Shown: piece by piece, positions 10,658-16,178 of the stretch
Layout: each line of letters opens with the position of its first letter
Numbering within the stretch: position 1 is the stretch's first letter
Origin: Methylocystis sp.
GTDB taxonomy: Bacteria > Pseudomonadota > Alphaproteobacteria > Rhizobiales > Beijerinckiaceae
DNA: 64,000 nucleotides
Assembly (NCBI GenBank): GCA_002929055.1
Contig: PERY01000016.1
Coordinates: 1-64,000 of the forward strand
Direction of reading: 5' to 3'
Position numbers and translations under genes: made by a program
The notes under the pieces: model-generated
Seen by the model: the letters and a program-made list of their open reading frames with translations, nothing else
Told to the model about the DNA's origin: nothing
Database searches by the model: none

Positions 10658-10673
10658 TGGTCCGGTTATTGCG
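10658..10673 (+). promoter_or_regulatory. Candidate sigma54 (RpoN) -24/-12 promoter
   Basis: TGGTCCGGTTATTGCG: GG-N10-GC spacing, TGG..CG and TTGC elements; 62 nt upstream of ATG at 10736. Confidence 0.55.
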
Positions 10674-10735
10674 GTGGATGGGGAGTTCCCACCAACGGCC
10701 GATGTGTTCGCGCCTGTTATTCAAGGAGTGGAGCT

Positions 10736-11644
10736 ATGGCCAACGTCACTTTTTCATCCCCCGTGCTGGCGCGCGACGTCACGGTTTATGCGGTCGCCGG
10801 CGATCGCGGAACGCTGCTGGCGGTCGCCAAGGCGCACAAGATTCCGTTGCCTTTCGACTGCCAGGATGGCGAGTGCGGCTCGTGCATCGTCGAGATCAAG
10901 CACCTCAGCCCCGATGTGAAATACGCCATCGCCCTCACCGAGAAGGAGAAGGAACTGCTGAAGCAGCTTGGCAAGATCACAAAGGCGGAAATCGAGAACG
11001 CGGAAGTCAACGACATGCCGCCGCGCTATAGGCTGGCGTGCCAGTATTTCGTTCGCAACGAGGACATCGTCGTCAGCTTCGAAGGCGACCAGACGCTGCC
11101 CGTCAAAGGCCCCCACATCACGCACGCCGCCAGCCGCTTCAAGGGCGGCACCGAGATCGGCTCGATCGACGAATTCCTCGGTTACGCCGTGAAGCTCGAG
11201 GAGGACGCGGCGCTCCATTACGACGAACTGGGCGCGGCGATGGACGGCTGCGGCAACCAAAGGGTCGCGACCCTGTTTCGTCAGCTCGCAGCCTTCTCGC
11301 GCCGGCACCTCGCCGAGGCGCGGTCGCGCGCAGGCTCTCTCGACGTCGACACTAAAATCCCGCCGGATTACGTCTGGCCCAATCATGTCACGCCGGAGCG
11401 CGCTTCGATCTGGGCGGCCGATCCTTCGCTGTCGCGGCTCGATGCATTGAAAGCCGCGCTGCAGGGCGAGCGGCGGGGCCATGAATTTTACTGCGCGGTC
11501 GCGGCGATGAGCAAATCTCCCGAGGTCGCGGCCATGGCGAAGGAGTTCGTCAAGGAAGAAGCCGATCACGTCAAGGTTCTCGAAGCCTGGATAACGCACG
11601 AAGAATGGGACGTGAAGAATGCGTCGGCGCCGGCCGGCGCCTGA
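10736..11644 (+). CDS. Shethna FeSII-type [2Fe-2S] ferredoxin fused to a C-terminal ferritin-like/rubrerythrin-like domain
   Basis: N-terminus MANVTFSSPVLARDVTVYAVAGDRGTLLAVAKAHKIPLPFDCQDGECGSCIVEIKHL...LTEKEKELLKQLGKITKAEIENAEVNDMPPRYRLACQ (CX4CX2CX51C, as in A. vinelandii FeSII); C-terminal half collinear with the ferritin-like gene at 11682. Confidence 0.85.
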   Translation: MANVTFSSPVLARDVTVYAVAGDRGTLLAVAKAHKIPLPFDCQDGECGSCIVEIKHLSPDVKYAIALTEKEKELLKQLGKITKAEIENAEVNDMPPRYRLACQYFVRNEDIVVSFEGDQTLPVKGPHITHAASRFKGGTEIGSIDEFLGYAVKLEEDAALHYDELGAAMDGCGNQRVATLFRQLAAFSRRHLAEARSRAGSLDVDTKIPPDYVWPNHVTPERASIWAADPSLSRLDALKAALQGERRGHEFYCAVAAMSKSPEVAAMAKEFVKEEADHVKVLEAWITHEEWDVKNASAPAGA

Positions 11645-13533: not shown

Positions 13534-13596
13534 GAAAGCGTCGCCGGAGCCCCATGCAGACTCCGCGCTCCGTCAATTTTCTCCTTGGAGGCAATA

Positions 13597-14016
13597 ATGG
13601 CATCGCTCAAGGGCAGCAAGACCGAAGAGAACCTGAAAGCCGCCTTCGCCGGCGAATCGCAGGCGAACCGTCGCTATCTCTATTTCGCTCAGAAGGCCGA
13701 CGTCGAAGGCTACAACGACGTCGCCAGCGTGTTCCGCTCCACCGCGGAAGGCGAGACGGGCCACGCCCACGGCCACCTCGAGTTCCTCGAGAGCGTCGGC
13801 GATCCGGCCACTGGCCTGCCGATCGGCAAGACCTCGGACAATTTGAAGGCCGCCGTCGCCGGCGAGACCCATGAATACACCGACATGTATCCGGGCATGG
13901 CGCGCTCGGCTCGCGAAGAAGGCTTCGACGAGATTGGCGACTGGTTCGAGACGCTCGCCAAGGCTGAGCGTTCGCACGCCGGCCGCTTCCAGAAAGCGCT
14001 CGACGAGCTGAAGTAA
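13597..14016 (+). CDS. Rubrerythrin family protein lacking a rubredoxin domain
   Basis: [64 protein letters not shown]; two ExxH-type repeats; no CxxC. Confidence 0.93.
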
Positions 14017-14137
14017 GTTCGTTTCTATTCCCTCTTCCCGCAAGCGTCGAAAGACGCCCGTTTCGGACGGGCTGTGTGGGGGGAGGGTAAGGGGCCGGGG
14101 CTAGCCCCCAGTTCCCTCGCTGGCCCCTCGGCCACAG

Positions 14138-14162
14138 CCTCTCCCCGTTCTTCGGGGGGAGG
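14138..14162. repeat. GC-rich hairpin CCTCTCCCCG..CGGGGGGAGG
   Basis: Inverted repeat of the CTCCCC/GGGGAG intergenic hairpin type. Confidence 0.5.
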
Positions 14163-14194
14163 CGGCGGGCCGCAAGCCGCATAGCAGGACGATC

Positions 14195-15538
14195 ATGAGA
14201 GAAGGCAGTCTCGAGGCGCCCACCCGGCATCCGCTGGATTGGGAAAATCCCGACTTTTACGACGACGCGAAACTCGACGCGGAAATGCGCCGCGTCCTCG
14301 ACATCTGTCACGGCTGCCGCCGCTGCTTCAATCTCTGCGACAGCTTTCCGAGGCTCTTCGACCTCGTCGACGAGTCGAAGACGGGCGAACTCGACTCGGT
14401 GGACAGCAAGGATTTCAAGCCCGTCGTCGACGCCTGCACGCTTTGCGACATGTGCTTCCTGACCAAGTGCCCCTACGTCCCGCCGCACGAATTCAACCTC
14501 GATTTCCCGCATCTGATGCTGCGCTATCGCGCCGTCGAGGCGAAGAAGAACGGCGTCGGCGCCGCCGACCGCGCACTGACCGAGACCGACCGTAATGGCA
14601 AATGGGCGACGCTGATCTCGGGCGCCGCCAATTGGGCGACCCGCCGTGGAAGCCCGCTGCGCGGCCTCGAAGAGAAAATAGCCGGCATCGACAGGAACGC
14701 CGAACTGCCGGAATACGCCAACCAGACTCTCACCGCGCGCGCTGCGGCCAAGCCGCCTGCGCGCGACGACGCTGCGCCCGCCAAGGCCCGCAAGGTGGCC
14801 CTCTACGCCACCTGCTACGGCGACTATAACGACACCTCCATCGGCATGGCCGCGCTCGCCGTGCTTGCTAAGAATGGCGTCGAAGCCAAGGTCGTGCATC
14901 CCGCCTGCTGCGGCATGCCGAAGCTCGAACAGGGGTTGATCGGCGAAGTGGCGGACGCCGCACGCAAGGTCGCCGCCGCCTTCGCGCCCTATATCGACGA
15001 AGGCTATGACATCGTCGCGCCGGTTCCCTCCTGCGCGCTGATGCTGAAATTCGAATGGCCGTTGATCCTGCCGAACGACGAGAGCGTGAAGCGCCTCGCC
15101 AAGGCGACGTTCGACCTGTCTGAGTATATCGTCGACATCTCGAAGAAAGAGGGGCTCGCCGACGGCATGACGCCCATCGACGGCGGCGTCGCCTTCCATG
15201 TGTCCTGCCATTCGCGCGCGCAGAACTTCGGCCAGAAGGGCGCGGAACTGCTCAGGCTCATCCCGCAGGCGGATGTCGCGGTGGTCGAGCGCTGCTCGGG
15301 CCATGGCGGCGCCTGGGGCTACAAGAAGGGTAATTTCGAAACCGCGATGAAAGTCGGCAAGCCCGCCATGCGCCAGCTCAATACGGCTGGCAAGAAGCAT
15401 GTCGTCTCGGAGTGCCCGCTCGCCGGCATCCATCTGGAGCAGGGACTCGAACAACTGGGCGGCGAGACGCCCAAGCCCGAGCGCGTCGGCCATCCGATCG
15501 TGTTGATGGCGCGGGCTTATGGAGTTGCGAGCGAATAG
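14195..15538 (+). CDS. GlpC/HdrD-related Fe-S protein: two 4Fe-4S motifs plus CCG-type domains
   Basis: CHGCRRCFNLCDSFP, CTLCDMCFLTKCPYVPP, HPACCGMPKLEQG, ERCSGHGGAWGYKK. Confidence 0.88.
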   Translation: MREGSLEAPTRHPLDWENPDFYDDAKLDAEMRRVLDICHGCRRCFNLCDSFPRLFDLVDESKTGELDSVDSKDFKPVVDACTLCDMCFLTKCPYVPPHEFNLDFPHLMLRYRAVEAKKNGVGAADRALTETDRNGKWATLISGAANWATRRGSPLRGLEEKIAGIDRNAELPEYANQTLTARAAAKPPARDDAAPAKARKVALYATCYGDYNDTSIGMAALAVLAKNGVEAKVVHPACCGMPKLEQGLIGEVADAARKVAAAFAPYIDEGYDIVAPVPSCALMLKFEWPLILPNDESVKRLAKATFDLSEYIVDISKKEGLADGMTPIDGGVAFHVSCHSRAQNFGQKGAELLRLIPQADVAVVERCSGHGGAWGYKKGNFETAMKVGKPAMRQLNTAGKKHVVSECPLAGIHLEQGLEQLGGETPKPERVGHPIVLMARAYGVASE

Positions 15539-15587
15539 GGCGGAGCCTCGTTCGCGCCCTCAGACTGTTTTACGGAGCAGCAAGAAG

Positions 15588-16178
15588 ATGACGAACCGTC
15601 ACGAACTCACCAGAGCCGACATTCTCCCCTGGGCGGAATACGCCAAGGGTCGGGCCGAGCACCGCAAGCGCATCACCGCGATCAAGCGCAACCGCCGCGT
15701 CGAGGTCGGTCCCTTCGTGACCTTCTATTTCGAGAGCTTCGACACGATGTGGCTGCAGGTGCAGGAGATGCTCCACATCGAGCGTGGCGGCGACGCGCAG
15801 GTGCCCGAGGAGCTCGCCGCCTATAATCCGCTGATCCCGAAGGGTCGCGAACTTGTGGCGACTTTCATGATCGAGATCGACGATCCGTTGCGCCGCGCGC
15901 GGGTGCTGGCCGGTTTGGGCGGCATCGAGGAGACCGCATTCATCGAGGTCGCCGGCGAGCGCGTGCCGGCCGTCGCCGAGACCGACCAGGACCGCACCAC
16001 CGCCGAGGGCAAGGCGAGCAGCGTGCAATTCGTGCACTTCACCTTCACCGACGCGCAGGTCGCAGCCTTCAAGGAACCGAACGCCCGGGTGATCCTCGGC
16101 TTCGCGCATCCGAACTACAGCCACATGGCCGTGCTTGGAGAGGCGACGCGGGCCGCGCTGGCGGGGGACTTCGCGTAA
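15588..16178 (+). CDS. DUF3501 family protein
   Basis: ELTRADILPWAEYAKGRAEHRKRITAIKRNRRVEVGPFVTFYFESFDTMWLQVQEMLHIE; follows rubrerythrin and Fe-S gene. Confidence 0.85.
   Translation: MTNRHELTRADILPWAEYAKGRAEHRKRITAIKRNRRVEVGPFVTFYFESFDTMWLQVQEMLHIERGGDAQVPEELAAYNPLIPKGRELVATFMIEIDDPLRRARVLAGLGGIEETAFIEVAGERVPAVAETDQDRTTAEGKASSVQFVHFTFTDAQVAAFKEPNARVILGFAHPNYSHMAVLGEATRAALAGDFA

Follow-up and report, generated by a model that had tools for sequence, protein, structure and literature searches.

In a Methylocystis sp. contig, a single open reading frame encodes a [2Fe-2S] domain of the FeSII (Shethna protein II) type followed by a ferritin-like domain. The locus raises the question of whether these two halves form one genuine protein and what such a protein would do in a nitrogen-fixing bacterium. 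In Azotobacter, FeSII guards nitrogenase against oxygen; dimerisation, a switch set off by oxidation and an O2-resistant complex with NifDK and NifH are characteristic of it. A 2025 cryo-EM report describes the Azotobacter FeSII-nitrogenase complex (PMC12585515). The original prediction, made from the letters of the window (the whole stretch of 64,000 nucleotides that was analysed), had named no functional description of the fusion. The literature search, with most subscription journals outside its scope, likewise found no description of FeSII and rubrerythrin together or of a FeSII-ferritin-like fusion, and the papers naming FeSII, ferritin and nitrogenase together appeared to concern other subjects. 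RPA1927 and RPA1928, Rhodopseudomonas palustris genes coexpressed with nif, were sought in the literature and not found.

The fused gene and its two halves

The features of the locus are collected in Table 1. As originally predicted, FeSII and a ferritin-like domain occupy one ORF: the 302-aa frame was unbroken, and the same fused frame, free of the break that would have separated its halves, was present in 62 orthologues. The Pfam content was limited to the Fer2 and rubrerythrin/ferritin-like domains, and a rubredoxin-type FeS(Cys)4 domain was absent. In the AlphaFold2 model, a ferredoxin fold is joined by a low-confidence linker (119-139) to a helical bundle (144-296) with helices at 144-171, 175-199, 234-258 and 262-296; with a mean pLDDT of 76 and a pTM of 0.52, the mutual placement of the two halves in this model is unreliable.

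Table 1. Positions of the fused gene, its parts and adjoining features in the window
Feature	Position	Strand	Basis or remark
Sigma-54-type -24/-12 promoter-like site TGGTCCGGTTATTGCG	10658..10673	+	78 bp before start codon; 10/12 consensus positions
Ribosome-binding site AAGGAG	10723..10728	+	sequence; 7 nt ahead of ATG
Fused FeSII-ferritin-like gene	10736..11644	+	302 aa + stop; ORF unbroken
FeSII domain, residues 1-118	10736..11089	+	phmmer, conservation, AlphaFold2, Foldseek
FeSII-domain cluster ligands	Cys42 10859-10861, Cys47 10874-10876, Cys50 10883-10885, Cys102 11039-11041	+	
Linker, residues 119-143	11090..11164	+	low model confidence, pLDDT <50 at 119-139
Ferritin-like four-helix domain, residues 144-296	11165..11623	+	PDB/Pfam matches, AlphaFold2, Foldseek
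Putative metal ligands of ferritin-like domain	E155 11198-11200, H191 11306-11308, E245 11468-11470, E275 11558-11560, H278 11567-11569	+	
Ser188 at helix-B Glu position	11297-11299	+	
Stand-alone ferritin-like partner gene, 155 aa	11682..12149	+	starts 37 bp past stop of fused gene

The N-terminal half of about 120 residues had been taken for a Shethna protein II homologue, and it proved to be one. Residues 1-118 shared 50% identity with Azotobacter FeSII, and the spacing Cys42-x4-Cys47-x2-Cys50-x51-Cys102 agreed with A. vinelandii FeSII at every position. In phmmer searches of the PDB this region matched FeSII 5ffi at E=2.8e-34 (FeSII entries spanned 6e-35 to 1e-32), whereas the best ordinary ferredoxin after them reached E=0.018; the N-terminus thus groups with FeSII, and the reading of it as an ordinary ferredoxin was rejected. 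FeSII chains also led the Foldseek results for the fused-protein model (9cu1, E=3.8e-11). All four cluster cysteines were invariant in 63/63 fused sequences, and His56 (H55 in mature numbering, a proposed affinity modulator) was present in 55 of the 63, the window protein included. The model helix 69-77 coincided with the position of the FeSII lid helix, residues 68-78 (PMC11301756); the 'open' crystal form of FeSII is disputed (PMC11301756).

The fused protein of the window shares with A. vinelandii FeSII (5ffi, 9cu1) half its residues over 1-118, the cysteine positions, the long lid region and a link to diazotrophs, whereas the Azotobacter protein has about 122 aa, no ferritin-like domain, and the lysines K14/K15 (mature numbering) reported to be crucial to its interaction with nitrogenase (PMC3045800). 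The equivalents in the fused family, residues 15 and 16, were V, I, M or L (mostly V/I) and T in 63/63 sequences, so both lysines are absent, and docking to nitrogenase, if any, must rely on partly different contacts. The lysine pair is no strict marker of the FeSII family, since most of the 18 stand-alone FeSII proteins compared retained just the first of the two. A further relative, Rhodobacter capsulatus FdxD, encoded by a fesII-like gene, is activated by NifA and said to confer conformational protection on Mo-nitrogenase; it is likened to the fused family by that description and differs in being described as a [2Fe-2S] ferredoxin only (PMC8777916).

The C-terminal half was a four-helix ferritin-like domain, again in line with the original prediction: residues 144-287 matched 2oh3 (COG1633; phmmer against PDB, E=3.4e-18) and Pfam Rubrerythrin PF02915 (6.4e-13), and Foldseek ranked 2oh3 first for the bundle (E=5.2e-6), alongside the helical bundle of the AlphaFold2 model. 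The search of both halves suggested with that prediction therefore returned FeSII for residues 1-118 and COG1633/Rubrerythrin for residues 144-287. The further suggestion, that this domain is a putative diiron O2/peroxide-handling module, fared less well. The canonical pattern of E (helix A), ExxH (B), E (C) and ExxH (D) was broken by Ser188: the position of the helix-B ligand Glu was Ser in 63/66 fused domains and in 50/50 partner proteins but Glu in 9/9 stand-alone homologues of the same order, so that Ser marks the fused/partner clade, and a canonical diiron site of the oxidase/peroxidase type is not supported. The other five ligand positions were retained in at least 92% of the fused domains and in all partners, with H191, E245, E275 or H278 also varying in a few fused members. 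From this residue pattern a metal site in the bundle is plausible, and the bundle may be catalytically weak, mononuclear, an altered two-metal site or structural.

Among known proteins, the closest solved structure to the bundle, 2oh3 (COG1633, rubrerythrin-like, from Magnetospirillum magnetotacticum), shares the Ser in place of the helix-B Glu. Unlike the bundle, it stands alone, and its PDB entry calls it uncharacterised. It may be a member of the nif-linked group to which the fused family belongs. Rubrerythrin shares the four-helix bundle and, in its classical form, carries an electron-transfer domain on the same chain as the bundle, but that domain is a rubredoxin, not [2Fe-2S], and the helix-B Glu is retained. 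Bfd and bacterioferritin likewise pair a [2Fe-2S] protein with a ferritin-like protein; they belong to other families, are separate proteins and involve a cage-forming ferritin.

Spread of the fusion and its stand-alone partner

A scan with one genome per species yielded 62 further fused orthologues of about 294-311 aa in Alpha- and Betaproteobacteria (at locus L027 the fused frame ran past the contig end). The genera included Methylocystis, Methylocapsa, Rhodopseudomonas, Bradyrhizobium, Rhodopila, Rhodomicrobium, Rhodoblastus, Telmatospirillum, Zavarzinia, Roseiarcus, Methyloceanibacter, Derxia, Variovorax, Methyloversatilis and others. In a tree of ferritin-like domains, unrooted and built by a quick method, a branch with SH-aLRT 100 separated all 66 fused domains from the 50 stand-alone partners. 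This fits a single fusion event, and the fusion is apparently of single origin as judged from this tree. A sequencing or assembly artefact, or a chance read-through joining two genes, was rejected because the 62 independent fused orthologues form one clade; nothing spoke for such an error, though split gene pairs exist in family f28, and we consider it extremely improbable. In Methylocapsa palsarum, two fused copies were present in one genome (L005 and L007; G002:C48 and G002:C27).

The stand-alone ferritin-like partner gene adjoined the fused gene in 40 loci, downstream in 36 (the window included) and just upstream in 4, the latter being betaproteobacterial or unclassified. Conserved neighbours were sought across all fused loci, and none was found besides this partner. 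FeSII was unfused in family f28, which belongs to the same order; there, 6 genomes carried an FeSII gene of about 123 aa adjoining a stand-alone ferritin-like gene. These split pairs adjoined nifH, nifD and nifK in L087 and L088 and lay within about 2 kb of nifD in G315. The fused form is thus a closer joining of two components that elsewhere are encoded by separate genes. G298, considered as a distant fused copy, was rejected, its locus being a split pair of a 123-aa FeSII gene and an adjoining ferritin-like gene. The plasmid records held no full-length fused match, only a stand-alone FeSII-like protein of Methylococcus and a weak ferritin-like match.

Other genes of related type were seen in the window's genome. 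A further ferritin-like paralogue of the partner clade (G000:C3:123450-123944, L003) lay away from FeSII and adjoined an aldehyde-dehydrogenase-like gene. In the window itself, three consecutive plus-strand genes (13585-16178) encode a bundle-only rubrerythrin of 143 aa, a GlpC/HdrD-like Fe-S protein of 447 aa and a DUF3501 protein of 219 aa. This trio lies about 1.4 kb downstream of the partner gene, beyond two minus-strand genes, and is possibly another oxidative-stress operon.

Nitrogen fixation genes and upstream sites

The fused form was confined almost entirely to nitrogen fixers, in which it often neighboured nif genes. The association with nif-bearing genomes expected in the original prediction was borne out by a count in the order sample, where nifD was present in 9/9 fused genomes against 67/397 in the background (Fisher p=7e-8, a value that ignores shared ancestry, the fused genomes covering 3 families of the order). 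Further fused genomes fell in other orders and classes. Genomes with any FeSII (a match at E <1e-20) were nifD-positive in 34/34 cases in the order sample, and a Fisher test run with 33/33 FeSII genomes of the order gave p=8e-30, with kinship likewise ignored. Across the phylum-wide sample, nifD was present in 4/4 genomes with the fused gene and in 13/14 with FeSII. The sole exception seen was a stand-alone FeSII-like gene (G504:C3:7185-7589) in a genome that is 99% complete and gave no nifD match at E<=1e-100. Among genomes picked for the fused gene, 43/50 exceeded the nifD cut-off, including all fused isolates; the 7 below it were all MAGs, of which G009 and G035 carried nifD in pieces.

In the window's genome, itself a MAG, nifD was located at G000:C11:64067, on a different contig from the fused gene. 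In G287, of the same genus (locus L086), nifA (TIGR01817, 725 bits) immediately preceded the fused gene, and nifD was 12 kb away. The distance to nifD was about 8-19 kb in G001, G025, G027, G036, G040, G044, G047, G287 and G555; the fused gene was far from nifD in many genomes, for example by about 490 kb in Methylocystis rosea G007.

A simple consensus score was applied to the upstream regions (300 bp, 63 loci); because of the kinship among these loci, the counts are not independent. A -24/-12 site with at least 10/12 positions was found in 35/63 regions, compared with 3.9% of 300-bp windows drawn at random from these loci. The motif TGT-N10-ACA also occurred in 35/63 regions (3.5% in the control), a plain count that is inflated by the Methylocystis upstream sites, which differ in layout. 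The combination of a -24/-12 site with a NifA-type site 60-150 bp before it was present in 21/63 regions and in 1.0% of the control. For the window's fused gene, the TGGTCCGGTTATTGCG core was conserved with L004, L005 and L086 and most of the leader was not; no NifA-type upstream site was found within 450 bp ahead of the gene. The L086 upstream region carried TGGTCCGTGTCTTGCT at -74 and TGTCGGAAACCAGACA at -162. From these upstream sequences, expression of the fused gene is predicted to be NifA-dependent. A palindrome, TGTCTGAGTTCAGACA, was also observed before the start codon of Methylocystis-type loci, at 31 bp in L008 and L010-L014 and at 39 bp in L009 and L015, with variants in L009, L014 and L015; it lies very near the start codon, outside the usual NifA position, and is possibly the operator of another regulator.

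Proposed role and alternative readings

Judged by what it is homologous to, by its linkage to nif and by the type of its promoters, the fused protein is probably a nif-regulon oxygen-protection protein of diazotrophs. The split gene pairs near nif genes and the NifA-activated FdxD also speak for this role. We infer that it would be expressed under diazotrophy and bind nitrogenase, and that its bundle may carry out redox chemistry. The FeSII half would react to oxidation and, during O2 stress, bind to nitrogenase, as in Azotobacter; the derived ferritin-like bundle would be held on a flexible linker and probably act with the separate partner protein. The bundle would most likely place an oxidant-reactive or iron-binding metal site near the [2Fe-2S] cluster or nitrogenase, where the site would either remove O2 or peroxide locally or set the redox state of the FeSII switch. 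The points counted against this role are the absent docking lysines, the missing helix-B Glu, the window promoter without a NifA site, the location of nifD on another contig in this MAG and the frequent distance from nifD elsewhere. One specific version, which we advance tentatively, is a built-in O2 trigger: upon meeting O2 or peroxide, the bundle with its remodelled metal site would oxidise the tethered FeSII cluster and so switch the shield on, and the partner would serve as an additional subunit for sensing or scavenging. Docking, for which the lysines are lost, may likewise have passed to the bundle.

The two halves could instead form a ferredoxin-fed reductase, in which the [2Fe-2S] domain would only feed electrons to a fused metal site that reduces H2O2 or O2 in diazotrophic cells, by analogy with rubredoxin serving rubrerythrin, and would lack FeSII-type docking to nitrogenase. 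An electron carrier and a ferritin-like domain do share one chain, docking K14/K15 are absent, 5/6 metal ligands are retained and the nif association suits protection in general; however, Ser replaces the helix-B Glu throughout the clade, and a plain electron carrier would not need His56 and the 51-residue lid region specific to FeSII, both of which are retained. We regard such a reductase as rather doubtful. The loss of that Glu across the clade, with the variation of H191, E245, E275 or H278 in a few fused members, would suit a bundle that has lost its metal chemistry and gives an FeSII-type protein a module for structure, dimerisation or docking. The retention of the other five ligands, in at least 92% of fused domains and in every partner, argues against such a module, which we regard as unlikely. 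It is quite unlikely that the protein handles iron for the nitrogenase cofactors, with the ferritin-like domain and the partner holding iron that the FeSII domain would free by electron transfer, as in the Bfd/bacterioferritin analogy. A ferritin-like fold beside a [2Fe-2S] domain, the separate ferritin-like partner and the nif linkage are consistent with iron handling, but the bundle is nearest to COG1633/rubrerythrin-like proteins and not to cage-forming ferritins, its ligand set is reduced, and the FeSII homology favours protection.

How FeSII senses O2 and moves nitrogenase into the protected state is an active research question. The fused version occurs widely, among others in methanotrophs, purple bacteria, Bradyrhizobium and Derxia, a distribution suggesting that in many diazotrophs the FeSII shield is coupled with a ferritin-like module. 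The fused proteins are natural constructs for testing shield activation and candidate parts for O2-tolerant nitrogen fixation.
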